Assembly: GCA_013821455.1 (NCBI GenBank)
Contig: JACDGS010000038.1
Location: 1-40,010, forward strand
Origin: Chthoniobacterales bacterium
Lineage (GTDB): Bacteria; Verrucomicrobiota; Verrucomicrobiia; Chthoniobacterales; UBA10450
Direction: 5' to 3'
Length of the DNA stretch: 40,010 bases
Shown here in pieces: positions 24,864-33,032 of this stretch. Both the position numbers and the translations under genes were made by a program. Every line of letters starts with the position of its first letter. Within the stretch, counting starts at the first letter, position 1. The notes under the pieces are model-generated. The model was not told where the DNA came from, ran no database searches, and saw only the letters and a list, made by a program, of their open reading frames with translations.

Positions 24864-26912
24864 ATGAATGGCAGTGGGTTTTTCGCCGAGCTGAAACGGC
24901 GCCACGTTTATCGTGCCGGCGTCATCTACGGGATGACCGCCTGGCTCATCATTCAGGTCGCCACCCAGACCTTCCCTTATTTTGATGTCCCCAGTTGGGT
25001 CGTCCGCTACGTCATCATCGGACTCGTCATTTTGTTTCCCGTCGTGCTCGGTCTCGCCTGGGCCTTCGAGATTACGCCCGAGGGCATCGTCAAGACCGAA
25101 GACCAGCCAAAGGAAACTCCGCGCCGGGCGCGCCAAGGGCGACGGGTCGGTCTGGTCGTCATCGGTCTCTTGTCGGCCGTGCTCGCCTTCGTTCTCTTGC
25201 AGCCGCATTGGTTCAGCTTTTTTTCGCGCAGCCGCGGCAAGAGCATCGCGGTCCTGCCTTTTGAAAACCTGAGCGATAACAAGGAGAACGCCTTTTTCGC
25301 GGACGGCATCCAGGACGATCTCCTGACTAATTTGGCCAAGATCAAAGACCTCAAAGTCATCAGCCGCACCAGCGTGATGAAGTATCGCGATCCCGCCACG
25401 CGCATCGTCCGCGAAATCGGGGACTCGTTAGGCGTGGCCAATATTCTCGAAGGCAGCGTGCGGCGCGAGGGCAATCGCGTCGCGGTCAACGTCCAGCTCA
25501 TCGACACCCTGACGGACGGTGCGCTTTGGACGAACGGCTACCAGCGCACGCTCGCCGGTTCGTTAGGCATCGAGGGCGAGCTCGCGACGGAAATCGCCAA
25601 CGCGCTGCGCGCCACTCTCACGCCCGAGGAAAAACAGCGGGTGAAACGCAAAGCGACCGGCAACGCCGACGCCTTCGAGCTTTATCTCCGCGCGCTGCCG
25701 TACGAACAAGGCCCAGATACCCTGCTGCAGGATTACCATCGTGCCGAACAGCTCTACACCCAGGCCATCGCGCTCGATCCAAACTTTGCGCTCGCGCACG
25801 CGCATCTCGCTTCCACTTACGCGGAGATTTTTCATTTCCACGAACCGCTCGCGACTTGGAAAGAGAAAGCCAAGGCTGAAGCCCAACGCGCGCTCGACCT
25901 CGATCCAAATTTGAGCGAAGCCCATTTCGCCCTCGGCCAGTGCAGCTACTGGCTGGACGGCGATTACGACCGCGCGCTCTCCGAGTTTGCGCGCGCGCAG
26001 GAGCTCGCGCCTAACAATGCCACGATCGGCCGGCTCAGCGCCGCGATCGAACGCCGCCAGGGCCGCTGGGAAGACGCGCTCGCCGCCTATCAACGCATCG
26101 GGATTGTCGATCCGCAAAATCCGAACGTCGCGCGTGAGCTGCTCACCACTTGCACCGCGCTGCGCAGATGGCCCGAAGCCGCGCAGGCCGCGGGCCGCTT
26201 GCGGGCGATCGCGCCCGACTCCGTCGTCGCTAAAATACAAACCGGCTACATCGAGTTTTGGTCCAGCGGAAGTACGGCAGCCTTGCACACCCAGCTCGCG
26301 CAAATCCCGCCCGAGAGCGATCCCGATGGAGTCGCCACCGCCGCGCGCTGGGACACCGCCATGCTGGATGGCGCCTACGCGGCAGCCGCGGCGATTCTGA
26401 CCCAGACATCCCTCGACTCGATTGACTATCTCAACGCGGGAGCGACGCCGAAAAGTTTTCTGTCCGGTTGCAGTGCACTGGCGCGCGGCGATGAGCCGAC
26501 CGCGCGCGCGCAGTTCGAGCTCGCGCGTGTGACCTTCGAAGACAACGTCCGCGAAGCGCCCGACAGCGCGGAACGTCACGCCAACCTGGGGTTGCTCTAT
26601 GCCTTCCTCGGCCGGCGCAACGACGCACTGCGCGAAGGCCGCCGCGCGGTCGAGTTGAAACCGGAAGCAAAAGACGCCGTCGATGGCGCACTCATGCAGA
26701 GCTTTCTTGCCTTGATCTACGTGCGCGCCGGCGAAAAAGATCTCGCCTTCTCGTTGCTCGAACGCCTGCTGCGCACGCCCGGTGCGGTGGACAGCGCGAG
26801 CTACAGCATCACGCGGAGCGACCTGGAGAAACGCTGGGAATGGGCGCCGTTGCGCGCCGATCCACGTTTCGCAAAACTCTTCGCCAACCCGGCGACTCCG
26901 GCAGTTCGTTAG
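24864..26912 (+). CDS. Membrane-anchored TolB-like/TPR protein
   Basis: A 682-residue protein. Two hydrophobic helices lie at about residues 18-34 and 48-68 and a third at 95-113. Then comes the TolB-like/FlgO-type domain with SIAVLPFENLSDNKENAFFA, DGIQDDLLTNLAKIKDLKVI and SRTSVMKYRD (127-176), widely seen behind adenylate cyclase or winged-helix DNA-binding domains. From about 265 to the end are tetratricopeptide repeats. The usual N-terminal cyclase or wHTH domain is replaced by the membrane part ELKRRHVYRAGVIYGMTAWL. The role is probably protein interaction or signalling. The TAG stop is the one inside a TCGTTAGGC 9-mer (26906). It converges on nnr. Confidence 0.82.
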   Translation: MNGSGFFAELKRRHVYRAGVIYGMTAWLIIQVATQTFPYFDVPSWVVRYVIIGLVILFPVVLGLAWAFEITPEGIVKTEDQPKETPRRARQGRRVGLVVIGLLSAVLAFVLLQPHWFSFFSRSRGKSIAVLPFENLSDNKENAFFADGIQDDLLTNLAKIKDLKVISRTSVMKYRDPATRIVREIGDSLGVANILEGSVRREGNRVAVNVQLIDTLTDGALWTNGYQRTLAGSLGIEGELATEIANALRATLTPEEKQRVKRKATGNADAFELYLRALPYEQGPDTLLQDYHRAEQLYTQAIALDPNFALAHAHLASTYAEIFHFHEPLATWKEKAKAEAQRALDLDPNLSEAHFALGQCSYWLDGDYDRALSEFARAQELAPNNATIGRLSAAIERRQGRWEDALAAYQRIGIVDPQNPNVARELLTTCTALRRWPEAAQAAGRLRAIAPDSVVAKIQTGYIEFWSSGSTAALHTQLAQIPPESDPDGVATAARWDTAMLDGAYAAAAAILTQTSLDSIDYLNAGATPKSFLSGCSALARGDEPTARAQFELARVTFEDNVREAPDSAERHANLGLLYAFLGRRNDALREGRRAVELKPEAKDAVDGALMQSFLALIYVRAGEKDLAFSLLERLLRTPGAVDSASYSITRSDLEKRWEWAPLRADPRFAKLFANPATPAVR

Positions 26913-27148: not shown

Positions 27149-28606
27149 TCAACGCAACTCTCGAAACGCCATTCCAAGATGATCAAGCACGTCGCTTGGC
27201 AGCAGCGATTCTTCACTCGCTCCGTCGCGACTCAGCGCCAACTCCGCCGCGCGTCCGCACAGCCACGCGCCCAGACGCGCGGCGTCGTTAGGCGCGAGCT
27301 TCGCGCCGAGCAGGCCGCCGCAGACTCCCGTCAGCACGTCGCCCATGCCACCGGTCGCCATCCCAGGAGTGCCGGTAGTGTTGTAGCTCAGCGGACGATT
27401 GCGCTCCGCCACGATCGTGCGGCTGCCTTTCAAGAGCAGCGTCGCCTTGTATTCGCGGCAGAACTTCGTCGCCCAATCCGCGCGCGAAGTTTTTCTAGTG
27501 GGGAAGATTCGCTTCATCTCGCCCGGATGCGGGGTGAGCAGGCGCGGACCGCGCGCCTTTTTTAGCACTGCCATATCATCGGCGAGAATGTTCAAGGCGT
27601 CGGCATCGACCACCATCGGCTGCTCAGCGTCTCGAATCAGCTGGCGGATTTGCGCGGCGCGCGACTTTCCCAAACCGGGCCCTATCGCCCAAACGTCGAT
27701 CGGTTCTTCCAGCAGATCCCCATAGGATTTTACCGGTTTCACCATCACTTCCGGCGCCGCGGCTGCGGCCACGATCTCGTAAATATTCTCCGGCACAAAA
27801 AGCTCGACCAAACCCGCGCCAGCGCGCAGCGCGCCTAACGAACAAAGGACTGCCGCACCTGTGAACCCTCGCGAACCCGCCACAATTCCAACCCGACCGA
27901 ATTGATTCTTGTAGGCGGAAAATTTCCGCCGCGGCAGCAAGTCACGCAAAGTTTCCGGGATCGCGACCTCCGCCCCGCCGGCATCCGTGTTCAACTCCTC
28001 CAACCCGATAACTTCCAGCCGCCCGACAAAGTTCAGCGCGTCATCCACCACAAGTCCGCGCTTGGTGAAACCAATCGTGAAAGTAAAATCCGCCACCACA
28101 CACGCGTCGTCCGCGGCACCGGAATCGCCGTCGAGCCCGGTCGGTAAATCCAGCGCGACGACAAACGCGCCACGTTCGCGGAGCGCGTTGATTTCACGAC
28201 ACGCGCTACGGATCGGCTCGCGCAACGGCGGCTTCGCGCCGAGACCGAGCAGGCCGTCGAGGATAACCGTCGGACCACCTCCGTCGTTGTCGTCGCGCGC
28301 CGGTTTCCCAAGCGCCCGCAACATCCTTTTCGTTAGGCTGCTCAATTCGTTAGGCGGAAAAATCAGCCGCGTTTCGATTTGCCAGCCCGCCTCCGCCAAC
28401 CAGCGCGCCGCGACCAGGCCGTCACCGGCGTTATTTCCTTTTCCCGCGAAGAGGATGCACTTCCCCGGACGCGGGAAAAACTTTGCCACCGAGCGCGCGA
28501 TCCCCTTCCCGGCCTGTTCCATCAACCTCCCGGCTTTCACTCCGCCGGCAAAAGCGGCTTCTTCCGAGGCGCGCATCTGCTCTGGAGTGATGATGGGCGA
28601 GTGCAC
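27149..28606 (-). CDS. nnr: Bifunctional NAD(P)H-hydrate epimerase/dehydratase
   Basis: A 485-residue two-domain protein that repairs hydrated NADH and NADPH. The N-terminal YjeF epimerase domain starts IITPEQMRASEEAAFAGGVK and contains FAGKGNNAGDGLVAARWLAE. The C-terminal ribokinase-like dehydratase domain contains GPGLGKS, VDADALNIL, LTPHPGEMKRIFP and the final GTPGMATGGMGDVLTGVCGG, which supplies the ADP/ATP-site Asp. Reading frame is open to 28762, but that extension is Arg-rich and overlaps the amidase gene. GTG 28606 gives MHSPIITPEQM and lies 13 bases after the amidase stop, so I chose it. The gap holds a 9-mer copy (28612). It is the last gene of the operon. Confidence 0.93.
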   Translation of the reverse strand: MHSPIITPEQMRASEEAAFAGGVKAGRLMEQAGKGIARSVAKFFPRPGKCILFAGKGNNAGDGLVAARWLAEAGWQIETRLIFPPNELSSLTKRMLRALGKPARDDNDGGGPTVILDGLLGLGAKPPLREPIRSACREINALRERGAFVVALDLPTGLDGDSGAADDACVVADFTFTIGFTKRGLVVDDALNFVGRLEVIGLEELNTDAGGAEVAIPETLRDLLPRRKFSAYKNQFGRVGIVAGSRGFTGAAVLCSLGALRAGAGLVELFVPENIYEIVAAAAAPEVMVKPVKSYGDLLEEPIDVWAIGPGLGKSRAAQIRQLIRDAEQPMVVDADALNILADDMAVLKKARGPRLLTPHPGEMKRIFPTRKTSRADWATKFCREYKATLLLKGSRTIVAERNRPLSYNTTGTPGMATGGMGDVLTGVCGGLLGAKLAPNDAARLGAWLCGRAAELALSRDGASEESLLPSDVLDHLGMAFRELR

Positions 28607-28619
28607 CGAAGTCGTTAGG

Positions 28620-29474
28620 CTAATTGTCGTCGCTCTTTTTCTTCTTCTTACTCTTGCCCGACTTTTTCTTCTTCGAGCTGCTCGTGCTGTGATGCCGGCC
28701 GCTCCGACCCGAGGACCGCGCATGATGTGAGAACGACGGGCGCTCCGGCGCCGGGCTGACAAAGTCGTTATAACCGCCGCCGATCGGCGAGGCTACATGG
28801 GTAAGCCCGGCTACGACCGGGCGGTTGTAAGGAGGCGACTGGCCGATGATGCCGGAGGTTATGCGATCGGCCAAACGCTCGCGATAGCTGCTTTGCAGAG
28901 CGAGACTCGACTCGTAAGGATTCGTCAGGAAACCACACTCCACGAGGACCGAAGGAATGCTCGTGCGCCGCAGCACATAGAAACCGCGCCGGCGAATGCC
29001 GCGATTTTCCGTCCCCGTCCCGCCCACGACTTGGCGATGAATATTTGCGGCCAGGCGCGCGCTGTCGCTGCGGTAATAATAAGTCTCGATCCCATTTGCC
29101 CCGGCGCGGGTCGCCGAGTTGAAATGAATGCTGACAAATTCCGCGTCGCGCAGTCCGTTCGCGATCGCGACGCGCACGCTTAACGGCACGAACACATCGG
29201 AATCGCGCGTCATGACGACGTGATAACCGCCCGCGCGGAGCTTGCGCGCGACACGTTGCGCGACGTCGAGCGTCATCGGTTTTTCGGCCACGCGCTGGCC
29301 GGGAATGCCGCCGCGGTCGAAGCCGCCGTGACCGGCATCGAGCACGACGGTGTGCGGACCGGTGATCGCTTGTGCTTCTTTCGTTAGGCTAAAAAAGGAG
29401 AGCGCGGCCACCAGGGTAAAATATAAGCCTAACGATAAGCCGCGCCGCCGCGCGGGACGAAATTCGGAGATCAT
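28620..29474 (-). CDS. N-acetylmuramoyl-L-alanine amidase (Amidase_3)
   Basis: A 284-residue exported amidase that cleaves peptide stems from peptidoglycan. A signal peptide covers about residues 10-38 (LSLGLYFTLVAALSFFSLTK). The zinc-site motifs are VVLDAGHGGFDRGG, the Glu in VAEKP, SIHFNSA, and the catalytic Glu in VLVECGFLTNP. The C-terminal tail is unusual: Ser/His/Arg-rich, ending in runs of lysine (KKKKSGKSKKKKK), which may bind anionic wall polymer. ATG 29474 follows GGAAG by about six bases and begins one base after the previous stop, so the two are coupled. The frame upstream of the ATG belongs to the previous gene's other frame. A 9-mer copy lies at 28612, just past its stop. Confidence 0.93.
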   Translation of the reverse strand: MISEFRPARRRGLSLGLYFTLVAALSFFSLTKEAQAITGPHTVVLDAGHGGFDRGGIPGQRVAEKPMTLDVAQRVARKLRAGGYHVVMTRDSDVFVPLSVRVAIANGLRDAEFVSIHFNSATRAGANGIETYYYRSDSARLAANIHRQVVGGTGTENRGIRRRGFYVLRRTSIPSVLVECGFLTNPYESSLALQSSYRERLADRITSGIIGQSPPYNRPVVAGLTHVASPIGGGYNDFVSPAPERPSFSHHARSSGRSGRHHSTSSSKKKKSGKSKKKKKSDDN

Positions 29475-29475
29475 C

Positions 29476-30339
29476 TCAATCTTCCGGCGGCAAATCAGCC
29501 GGCCGATCGGACAATTTCGGGATTGATTTCGTAGCGGCCGAGGGTGCGACCGGGACGTCGAGGATTCCGCCAGCGACCGTGACGGTGCCATCGGCCATCC
29601 GGCGCAGGCGGGGATTACCCCGCGCCTGCGCATAGCTGGCGTGCTTGATCAACTTGCCGTCGAGGCCCACGACGGAATACGACCAGATGCGCGGCGCCGC
29701 GCACTGCAAAACGTGGAGCTGATTTTCGCGATCGATTTCCTTGTGCGGCTCGTCGAAAGAAATCAAGCGGCCTAACGAGTAGGTCGCGTAAACCAGTCCG
29801 CGCGCTTGATCTTCCACCCGCACATAGAGCGAGGTGTGATCGGGAAACCGATTCGTCATCAGCGAGTACGTCCGCTCGCCATCGCCCGAGGGCATCCCGA
29901 CCGTTTGCTGCCAGATCGGCCGCGCGGTCGTGACTTCAAAAACGCGGGCGTGCGCATAAAAATATTTGTTCAGATCGGCGAAATAAACATTTAGCCGAAC
30001 GTGATAAACACCGAGGTCTCCGACGGGAAAACGCTCCTCGATATTAATCTTGCGCGTGACCGACGTTCCCGTGGGAATCTGCAACGGCGCCTCCGACACT
30101 TGCGCGAGGGGCGCGAGGATGCGGCCATCGTTCGCCGTCACCTCAAAGCCGTACCAATGCTGTTCGTCCTGGTCGCGCAGCTCGATGTCGCGCCCGGCCA
30201 GGTTCGTGATCGTGACCGTAGCCATGACCGGCTCATGCGCGATGTATTGGAGCCGCTTGAATTTCAGATCGACCTGGACCTGTGCCTGGGCCGAAAACGC
30301 GAGCAAAACGAGCAGCACGCACGGGAGAAATCGCTTCAT
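29476..30339 (-). CDS. Hypothetical exported beta-rich protein in the amidase operon
   Basis: A 287-residue protein that I do not recognise. It starts MKRFLPCVLLVLLAFSAQAQ, a clear signal peptide, and continues with a beta-sandwich-like region (HEPVMATVTITNLAGRDIEL, GVYHVRLNVYFADLNKYFYA). The C-terminal third has a Pro/Ala/Ser-rich end (KLSDRPADLPPED). ATG 30339 was chosen over the longer frame (30390) because it gives the signal peptide. It lies one base before the amidase and 57 bases after the kinase-like gene, so it belongs to the same operon and probably works in the envelope. Confidence 0.75.
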   Translation of the reverse strand: MKRFLPCVLLVLLAFSAQAQVQVDLKFKRLQYIAHEPVMATVTITNLAGRDIELRDQDEQHWYGFEVTANDGRILAPLAQVSEAPLQIPTGTSVTRKINIEERFPVGDLGVYHVRLNVYFADLNKYFYAHARVFEVTTARPIWQQTVGMPSGDGERTYSLMTNRFPDHTSLYVRVEDQARGLVYATYSLGRLISFDEPHKEIDRENQLHVLQCAAPRIWSYSVVGLDGKLIKHASYAQARGNPRLRRMADGTVTVAGGILDVPVAPSAATKSIPKLSDRPADLPPED

Positions 30340-30396
30340 CGGCGCGTAAGTTAACGCAACTCCTCGGAGATGAAAGTTGCGCGGCGGCATGCGCGC

Positions 30397-31833
30397 TTAT
30401 TTGCCCCAGAATTTTACCTTGTCGAGGAGGCCGGTTTTTTTCGGCGACACCAAGGGCGAAGGCGCGACGAGGGTCTCGAGCAATTTGGCTTCGTCCGCGA
30501 GCGAGTCCCATTCGGTGAGCGCGTCGTCGCCCGAGGTTTGCATTTGATGGATGAGCTTGAGCACACGCCCGCTGCCCGGCGTCGCGGTGGCCTTGGTCAC
30601 GGGAATAAGAAGACGCCCGAGCATTTTGATCTCGCTCTCCGCCGGCTCGTGCTGCGCGAGCGCGGGATTGATCACCGCTACTTCGGCGAGGCGCGCCTCC
30701 TCGTTAGGCGTAACGAAGATGCGCGAGAGCTGCAAGGGCGCGTGCAGGATCTGGTGATCCTCGAGATGCGCCATCGCCTCCGCCACCGCCCGAATGACCC
30801 GGAGCGCGAGCAACGCCGAGATCGTTAGGCCGCTGCTTGTGATTTCCAACAACGTGCGCCCCACCACGAATTCGCGCGCATAATAATAGCGGCCCTCGTG
30901 CTCGCCCGCTTCGTAAACCGGCAGGATCGCAGGGTGGCGGATGTTGGCGTTCACGCTCGCCGTATCGAGGAATTCCTGCGCGCGCGCCGGGTCCTGGCGC
31001 AGGCTGTCGCGCAGGACGTGCAGCACGACTGGGCGCCCGATCGAAGTCTGCTCCGCGGTGTAAAGTTTATCCCAGAAGGTCTCGGATAATTTGCGTCCGA
31101 CGCGATAGGTCCCGAAAACCTGGCCGGTCAAATCGAGTTCGTTAGGCAAAGGCGCCGCGGCTTCTTCTTCCGGCGCTGGTGAAGGCTGCGCGCGTTTGCG
31201 CAGCACGATTTCCGTGAGGGCCTCATCCCAGGGCAAATCAATCGTCCGTTCCACCGCGCTGGCCTGCGCGTCGTAGCCGAACACGACCGGCCCCCAACAA
31301 AGCATTTCGTAAAGCGCCTCACGCCCAGCCGCACTCGCCGTCGCCGCATGCAAGAGCTCGCCCTCACGAAGAAAGACGACTCCCTTCTCCGTCCCGGCTG
31401 CGAGTTGCAGCGCGCCGCTTTTTCGGCCGAGGCAACACATCTGCAACATGTCAACGAGGTGAAACGATCTCTCCGCCTCGTCGCCTTCTCCCGCGCGCGC
31501 GATGGCCTGGAGCAAACGCTCGCCATCGATCGGCTCCGGGAAAACTTTCGTGTTCGCCACCTCCAGCCGCTGTTCGTTCGCCGCGTAAGCGGGCAGGAAA
31601 AAAGTTTGCAGGCGCGGGAATTTTGCGCCTAACGAACCGCTCAGAGTCAACCCATCGATCCCCGGCGCCTCCAACTGCGCGAGGAGCAAATCGCATTCAC
31701 GTCCGCTCTCGGCCCAGGCCCACGCAGCGTCATCGTTAGGCACATAATCCGCCGGTTGCCCTGCGTATTCCTGCGCGATCCGCAGCAGACCTCCACCCAT
31801 CTCGGCGTCGTGATGGACGATGAGCAACTGCAT
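30397..31833 (-). CDS. Receiver-like, DUF4388 and pseudokinase fusion protein
   Basis: A 478-residue three-part signalling protein. Residues 1-115 resemble a response-regulator receiver, but the phosphoacceptor Asp is replaced by Gln 53 (LLLAQLEAPGIDG). Residues 123-192 are a DUF4388/PATAN-type domain (FHLVDMLQMCCLGRKSGALQ, then GVVFLREGELLHAATA). Residues 243-395 follow a Ser/Thr kinase (FGTYRVGRKLSETFWDKLYT, NIRHPAILPVYEAGE), but the ATP-site Lys is His (VVLHVLR), HRD reads HAP, and no DFG remains. It should not be catalytic. The start codon overlaps the upstream stop (TGATG), hence translational coupling. The longer frame to 32142 only overlaps the upstream gene. Several 9-mers occur here. 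Confidence 0.85.
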   Translation of the reverse strand: MQLLIVHHDAEMGGGLLRIAQEYAGQPADYVPNDDAAWAWAESGRECDLLLAQLEAPGIDGLTLSGSLGAKFPRLQTFFLPAYAANEQRLEVANTKVFPEPIDGERLLQAIARAGEGDEAERSFHLVDMLQMCCLGRKSGALQLAAGTEKGVVFLREGELLHAATASAAGREALYEMLCWGPVVFGYDAQASAVERTIDLPWDEALTEIVLRKRAQPSPAPEEEAAAPLPNELDLTGQVFGTYRVGRKLSETFWDKLYTAEQTSIGRPVVLHVLRDSLRQDPARAQEFLDTASVNANIRHPAILPVYEAGEHEGRYYYAREFVVGRTLLEITSSGLTISALLALRVIRAVAEAMAHLEDHQILHAPLQLSRIFVTPNEEARLAEVAVINPALAQHEPAESEIKMLGRLLIPVTKATATPGSGRVLKLIHQMQTSGDDALTEWDSLADEAKLLETLVAPSPLVSPKKTGLLDKVKFWGK

Positions 31834-33032
31834 CACTGCGGCGGCGCGGTGAAGGGCGGTGGAAACAAATTCAGCAGCCGTGTCGGGTCCGCCCGCACCG
31901 CCTGCAATTCCTCCTTGTAGTAAACACGCACGATGTAGCCAAGATACTGGTGCATCCCTTCCGCGCTCGACAGCTCCTCGCCTTTGCCTTTGGACTTGCG
32001 CGCGCGGGTCGCCTTCTCCACGGAGTCGGGCACCGCCGCGAGTTCCGTTCCCGGCACGGGATAATGTTTTTTCGGCCGGAGATAAGTCACGTCGAGAACT
32101 TCGGTGTCGGTGTCGGCCCAATTGTGGCCGGGCGTCACCCATTCGTAATTCACATCCGCGTCGGTCAGTGCGACCTGGTCGTTATCGACCACGTCATAGA
32201 AGAAAACCTGGATCTTTACTTTGGTGTAATCGATCTCGGTGTTCGGACGCTTTTTCACGCCGACGCGCAACGTCATGCGGGTGAGCGCGTCCGGATCGTC
32301 CACCGTCGTTTGCGTCACTTGCGAAATGCCAAACGACGAATCGTCGGGGATGCCGGTGGTGTCGTTAGGCGCAGCCGGCTCCGTGGGCGAACGGCCGGTC
32401 GAGCCGGGTATGCCCTGCACCGGCACGCCTAGTTGCAGCTTCAAAACAGCCAGCTCGCCGAGCGGGCCGGCGGCCGCGCCTAACGACTTCAACCTCGTCC
32501 AAACTTCGTTCGAACGATCGAAGAGCTGCATCGATTCATAGGTCATGGCCAGCTCCGCGAGGACGTCGGCATTCTGCGGAGCGAGCGCAATCGCCTGCTG
32601 CAATTTCGCGATGGCGTTGCCGGTATCGCCTTTGGCGCGCAACGCTTTCGCCACCTGCAACAACTCGTCCGGCACCGAGACCGCGGGCGCGGCGCCCGGA
32701 AGCGACTTTGTTTGCCGCTTCGTCGCCGGCGGGTTCGATTGCGTCTTCGTTAGGCGAGGCAGCGGCGACGCGGGGGCCGGCTTGACCGGACGCACCACCG
32801 GCAGCGCGGGAGCGAGTATTTCCGGGTGCGCGATCGTCGCGGCGTGGGGCGGCGATGGCACCAACGGCGGCGCGTGTTGCAGGTAAATAATGAGCGCGCC
32901 TAACAATTGCGCCGCCGCGACCGCACCGAGGATGGCCAGCGCGGCCGCGAAAGTTCGCTCCGACCTGCTGCCGTGGAAAAGTGAAGCCGCGCGCACGACC
33001 CGTTGTCTAGCGATCACGCCGGGAAGTGTCAA
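31833..33032 (-). CDS. Membrane-anchored TPR protein, first gene of the operon
   Basis: A protein of 387-399 residues. A hydrophobic helix at about residues 28-50 (AAALAILGAVAAAQLLGALI) is followed by a Pro/Ala-rich linker, then TPR-like helices around 123-190 (GDTGNAIAKLQQAIALAPQN). The second half is beta-rich (TRMTLRVGVKKRPNTEID, KIQVFFYDVVDNDQVALTDA) with unknown function. There is no nearby ATG: candidates are TTG 33032, GTG 33017 and GTG 32996. The TTG coincides with a good -35 sequence, so a later GTG may be the true start. It ends overlapping the pseudokinase gene and is divergent from glycerate kinase. Confidence 0.75.
   Translation of the reverse strand: MTLPGVIARQRVVRAASLFHGSRSERTFAAALAILGAVAAAQLLGALIIYLQHAPPLVPSPPHAATIAHPEILAPALPVVRPVKPAPASPLPRLTKTQSNPPATKRQTKSLPGAAPAVSVPDELLQVAKALRAKGDTGNAIAKLQQAIALAPQNADVLAELAMTYESMQLFDRSNEVWTRLKSLGAAAGPLGELAVLKLQLGVPVQGIPGSTGRSPTEPAAPNDTTGIPDDSSFGISQVTQTTVDDPDALTRMTLRVGVKKRPNTEIDYTKVKIQVFFYDVVDNDQVALTDADVNYEWVTPGHNWADTDTEVLDVTYLRPKKHYPVPGTELAAVPDSVEKATRARKSKGKGEELSSAEGMHQYLGYIVRVYYKEELQAVRADPTRLLNLFPPPFTAPPQ
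33004..33032 (-). promoter_or_regulatory. Candidate sigma-70 promoter for the minus-strand operon
   Basis: On the minus strand TTGACA (33032-33027) is followed by a 17-base spacer and TAGACA (33009-33004), which is close to the -10 consensus. The position is right for the TPR-led operon, but it overlaps the first possible codons of the first gene, and an mRNA from it would begin at about GTG 32996. No experimental support. Confidence 0.35.

Follow-up and report, generated by a model that had tools for sequence, protein, structure and literature searches.

FrzS of Myxococcus is a pseudo-receiver protein that regulates pili and binds the TPR protein SgmX (PMC11580455), and the pilus motor PilB1 is a target of PATAN regulators such as PixE in cyanobacteria (PMC7690835). 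The pseudokinase domain of MviN recruits FhaA, restraining peptidoglycan synthesis (PMC12599244). The 478 aa protein described here is a variant of such known non-catalytic signalling proteins, and it belongs to a wider, apparently undescribed family. As in FrzS-type proteins and aspartate-less receivers (ALRs), which function without phosphorylation, its receiver fold is devoid of the phospho-Asp; unlike these, it has nearly the whole pocket replaced, with the Asp pair, the Thr and the Lys also gone, and its receiver is fused to a DUF4388 domain and a pseudokinase. The combination of receiver and DUF4388/PATAN in one protein is shared with PatA, PixE and LsiR, whereas here PATAN follows a dead receiver and is itself followed by a pseudokinase. 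With the actinobacterial MviN and ActPs3, compared by their description in a review, the likeness lies in a PknB-like fold stripped of every catalytic motif and a fuller form that is membrane-associated; the set of receiver, DUF4388 and formylglycine-generating-enzyme (FGE)-like domain differs, as does the phylum.

The gene lies at 30397..31833 on the minus strand of the window, the whole 40,010-nucleotide stretch of Chthoniobacterales DNA that was analysed, and its ORF of 478 aa was assigned a pseudo-receiver, DUF4388/PATAN and pseudokinase organisation from Pfam and a structural model. The degenerate receiver occupies residues 1–112 (31498..31833, minus strand), an intact DUF4388 of PATAN type residues 123–212 (31198..31467, minus) and the pseudokinase fold residues 237–456 (30466..31125, minus; Pfam, fold superposition and motif alignment), with a disordered basic/aromatic tail, KKTGLLDKVKFWGK, at the C-terminus (30400..30450, minus; model and family alignment) that has short counterparts in other genera of the family. 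In Pfam, DUF4388 scores 52.1 bits against a cut-off of 25, covering profile positions 6–117 of 122, and PK_Tyr_Ser-Thr scores 32.3 bits against 23.1; Pkinase, at 28.0 bits, falls under its cut-off of 31.7, and Response_reg (PF00072), at 15.4 bits, well under 30.2. Five further DUF4388 domains occur in the source genome (G000), in four other ORFs on contigs C19, C32, C62 and C105, the C62 ORF carrying two.

Motif alignment bears out the residue losses claimed by the first-pass annotation, which was made from the sequence alone. In the receiver, the acidic pair is HH (H7 and H8) within VHHDA (residues 6–10), with Asp12 replaced by His7; the phospho-Asp, Asp57, is Gln53; Thr87 is Pro81; and the pocket Lys109 is Glu100, within FPEP. 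The phospho-Asp, acidic pair, Thr/Ser and Lys of a phosphorylatable receiver are thus all missing, and with Gln at the Asp position and homology to intact receivers encoded in the same operon slot, the domain belongs with the ALRs. In the kinase part, the VAIK Lys is H272, HRD is HAP (364–366), DFG is absent, with RLAEV at approximately 381–385, and SETFWD stands in place of the glycine-rich loop; none of the VAIK Lys, HRD Asp and DFG Asp of an active Ser/Thr kinase is present, and a two-lobe kinase fold without catalytic residues places it among bacterial Ser/Thr pseudokinases. Judged from these residues, usual phosphorylation and usual kinase action would be impossible for this protein. The label 'triple-degenerate' suits the receiver and the kinase; DUF4388, which we take to be one domain with PATAN, is well conserved, and we know of no catalytic site in it.

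An AlphaFold2 model built from 26 aligned sequences has a mean pLDDT of 88.9, and the low pTM (0.57) leaves the placement of its domains relative to one another open. Residues 1–115 show the alternation of strands and helices of a receiver, and residues 234–457 a kinase fold; the matches listed by a fold search with the model were to the kinase domain. Residues 237–454 superpose on PknB (VIA Z 21.0, rmsd 3.0, 209 residues superposed), and the two-lobe kinase fold is therefore kept. Three folded domains are predicted, with a flexible linker ahead of the kinase part.

A scan of 83 genomes of the source's family (threshold 1e-20 or better) placed the gene in 34 of them; a scan of a public genome collection gave no match with the single protein as query, and matches with an alignment. 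The full form is found in three same-genus genomes at 63–69% identity to the 478 aa protein, the same-genus metagenome genomes being MGR_bin412, palsa_1392 and MGR_bin232 (Chthoniobacterales/Spartobacteria), and H272, HAP and the absence of DFG are common to all four kinase-bearing members of the genus. Other genera of the family carry only residues 1 to about 230, the receiver and DUF4388, and neither a transmembrane helix nor an FGE-like domain was found in the 478 aa protein or the aligned family members. The phospho-Asp is missing from all 30 aligned family sequences (Gln at position 53 in 29, Glu in one); a single decayed copy, the case that the first-pass annotation named as refuting it, is ruled out by the dead receiver of 29 further family members, and the substitutions it wished to see aligned are conserved. 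H7, P81 and E100 are invariant (30/30), with variation at the second acidic position, residue 8 (R in 17, D in seven, H in six). Among 22 family receivers less than 90% identical to each other, the five pocket positions are jointly more conserved than 98.8% of random five-position receiver sets, as would be expected of a re-used pocket; a decaying pocket should vary. H7 and E100 may form a swapped acid–base pair.

With the TPR gene as query, the same operon was located elsewhere in the Chthoniobacterales, where in families f2, f3, f4, f5 and f10 a longer protein, with ORFs of 632–955 aa, lies between the TPR and exported genes (the slot protein of locus L099 has 434 aa, perhaps through a frameshift). 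These orthologues are built of a receiver, DUF4388 or a Pro/Ala linker, a kinase fold, one transmembrane helix, predicted in every full-length orthologue between the kinase and FGE parts, and an FGE-like extracytoplasmic domain. All five scanned in Pfam match Response_reg (42–62 bits in four, 27.5 in the fifth), Pkinase and FGE-sulfatase (123–148 bits), and three of the five match DUF4388; a Pro/Ala-rich linker occupies the place of DUF4388 in f4. The 478 aa protein is 32.5% identical to a same-slot orthologue over residues 46–458, a whole-protein match of E 2e-65, where the source genome's own kinases reach about 50 bits. That the genus recently took up its kinase domain from a foreign source is ruled out, the same-slot pseudokinases of other families being closest. 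Ser/Thr kinase–FGE-like fusion proteins exist in genome annotation, and the orthologues resemble them in combining a kinase fold with an FGE-like domain; they differ in a kinase fold that is inactive throughout and in the added N-terminal receiver, and the 478 aa protein is without the FGE-like part.

At 1e-45, matches were found in 108 of 384 genomes from across the class, and many of the loci still have TPR and exported genes adjoining. Receivers outside the source's family mostly retain DD, D57, T/S and K, with degeneration again in several other families (f14, f35 and f39), and the kinase parts mostly retain the VAIK Lys, a glycine loop often being present too. HRD and DFG were found in none of about 60 aligned kinase-fold relatives, their replacements being HSE, HAP, HTP or RSL and LAN or LSN, respectively. 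Intact homologues in the same operon, the stated ground for doubting the first-pass annotation, thus exist for the receiver in other families and are absent for the kinase. With no HRD or DFG in any aligned relative and mostly intact receivers outside the family, the pseudokinase is therefore ancestral and the dead receiver derived, and the idea that all catalytic sites were lost as one event is not upheld. Receiver death, though derived, is fixed across the source's family in these alignments. The results point to an apparently undescribed, class-wide family of pseudokinase receptors in soil and water bacteria with few genetic studies; the text of a review of bacterial pseudokinase families mentions no Verrucomicrobia, FGE or response regulators.

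The operon reported by the first-pass annotation is borne out, lying on one strand with a gene order that almost all family members keep if their contig spans it. It begins with a TPR protein with an N-terminal membrane helix (31833..33032, minus strand; Pfam and transmembrane prediction), whose TGA shares one base with the ATG of the 478 aa gene; there follow an exported, beta-rich protein (29476..30390, minus), a conserved partner gene without a family in Pfam or NCBIfam, an N-acetylmuramoyl-L-alanine amidase of type Amidase_3 (28620..29549, minus; Pfam) and, last of the run, an NAD(P)HX epimerase/dehydratase fusion (YjeF/NnrDE; YjeF_N and Carb_kinase; 27149..28762, minus; Pfam). Conservation of the exported protein ranks among the highest in the operon (52–78% identity within the family), and its start is more likely the ATG at 30339, the listed ORF probably opening with 17 untranslated residues; a fold search gave partial immunoglobulin-like or beta-sandwich matches (best E 1.6e-4, TM 0.26) and no function. 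Past the operon, and read from the other strand, lies a gene (24864–26912) for a 682 aa protein that probably has a membrane segment and contains a TPR-like region; it is similarly placed in many family members. The single N-terminal hydrophobic helix of the TPR protein is predicted to leave it facing outward, in contrast to the TPR partner of FrzS, and the 478 aa protein is predicted to be cytosolic; with these positions on opposite sides of the membrane, it is unlikely that the two proteins bind each other in the cytoplasm or that the TPR protein is controlled by direct contact.

The reading we prefer, with a probability of roughly 60%, is that the 478 aa protein is a phosphorylation-independent cytosolic adaptor derived from the class-wide pseudokinase receptor family. 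It is a shortened cytosolic orthologue of receptor-like proteins spread through the class, the fuller form of which runs from receiver through DUF4388 or linker and pseudokinase to a membrane helix and an outside FGE-like domain. A kinase fold without HRD and DFG in any aligned relative is therefore best seen as a binding module and not as an enzyme. In the source's family, the receiver has given up its phosphorylation site and acquired a new, fixed pocket of His7, Gln53, Pro81 and Glu100, while the parts in and outside the membrane have been dropped; most likely the pseudo-receiver and DUF4388 bind one cytosolic partner and the pseudokinase, where kept, another. The adaptor role is what we infer from this arrangement, and any connection with envelope growth is guesswork based on gene order. 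Tentatively, and with less confidence than doubt, a broader model may be drawn in which a class-wide family of Verrucomicrobiota membrane receptors signals without cytoplasmic catalysis, the receiver gating a pseudokinase that is connected across the membrane to an FGE-like sensor, and in which the source lineage made of this a soluble, phosphorylation-independent adaptor whose altered receiver pocket has His–Glu for the acid–base pair Asp–Lys. Basic/aromatic C-terminal tails (KKRGFFGAFRRS, KKTGLLDKVKFWGK and KWGIFGAGRKLG) follow a Pro-rich linker in several family members, with the kinase part present or absent (loci L013, L017–L020, L022, L024 and L028), and possibly serve as a peripheral membrane anchor substituting for the lost helix.

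Loss has been extensive, and the gene could instead be on its way out, with little function left and the pseudokinase-bearing genus the slowest loser. The transmembrane and FGE parts are gone across the source's family and the pseudokinase in most genera; in a maximum-likelihood tree of the TPR and exported proteins from 50 loci, the kinase-bearing genus and g10 (100% support) are sister to all other family members, and the kinase part would most simply have been lost once, at the base of that other clade. The gene is absent or disrupted in L110, L111, L112, L116, L117, L118 and L119 and throughout clade g14, which makes at least eight such events, independent of one another and one of them in a same-genus genome, although some frameshifts may be assembly errors of metagenome genomes; the gene is dispensable on this count. 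Remnants consist of the first 22 residues and an end in L116, frameshifted copies in L118 and L119 and a faint trace in L111, and in many genomes the exported gene directly follows the TPR gene, with 33–258 bases between. Against terminal decay stand the gene's persistence in the family, the three invariant new pocket residues and purifying selection on all domains in the source's genus, where Nei–Gojobori dN/dS among four full-length members is mostly 0.08–0.35, as rough ratios because dS is high, in several comparisons close to saturation or saturated. The kinase N-lobe is lowest (0.08–0.19); the values are 0.08–0.25 for DUF4388, 0.21–0.34 for the receiver, 0.10–0.35 for the C-lobe and up to 0.42 for the short C-terminal tail. 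Decay as the whole explanation is accordingly held to be rather improbable, and the non-catalytic protein of the first-pass view is, on these ratios, kept by selection. A single gene family, at a single place in the operon, shows a receptor losing catalysis and domains in steps while parts of it are still selected.

Control of envelope remodelling by way of the operon's amidase and its exported protein, the role the first-pass annotation proposed, draws on the TPR–slot–exported order kept in many families of the class, with the amidase next in several, and on MviN as a bacterial pseudokinase precedent (PMC12599244). The TPR and exported genes (with the amidase and YjeF where seen) are nonetheless kept by lineages without the 478 aa gene, the neighbours are predicted to be exported whereas this protein is cytosolic, and YjeF of the same run is housekeeping; such control is unlikely, and the account of a protein whose parts all died at one time, leaving a scaffold for envelope control, gives way to a staged history, the envelope part of that account resting on gene neighbourhood. 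Regulation of a type IV pilus or secretion ATPase, in the manner of cyanobacterial DUF4388/PATAN response regulators, has precedents in PixE on PilB1 (PMC7690835) and in the pilus regulation of FrzS (PMC11580455), and the source genome holds several PilB/GspE-type ATPases, yet no pilus gene adjoins the 478 aa gene in the loci inspected and the f4 orthologues have a linker in place of DUF4388, so that we consider this quite improbable. Nucleotide binding is conceivable in many orthologues because they keep the VAIK Lys and the glycine-rich loop; for the 478 aa protein, a pseudokinase serving as ligand or nucleotide sensor is nevertheless very improbable, with both features lost in the source's genus and the kinase domain absent from most genera of the family.

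A repeated motif also runs through the window. CGTTAGG occurs 64 times in the 40 kb against 3.1 expected, five copies lying inside 30397–31833 (at 30702, 30823, 31140, 31628 and 31734). A second dialect, GTGGTGGAA, of the corresponding 9-mer was tested in another genus and rejected. The 9-mer itself, TCGTTAGGC, is weak in g6 and near background elsewhere, and dense in same-genus genomes, g10 and g11 (1410–2754 copies); its 4605 copies genome-wide, about one per 930 bases, are shared equally between the strands (2299/2306, against 29/33 for the reversed control), a density and balance like those of a DNA uptake sequence.
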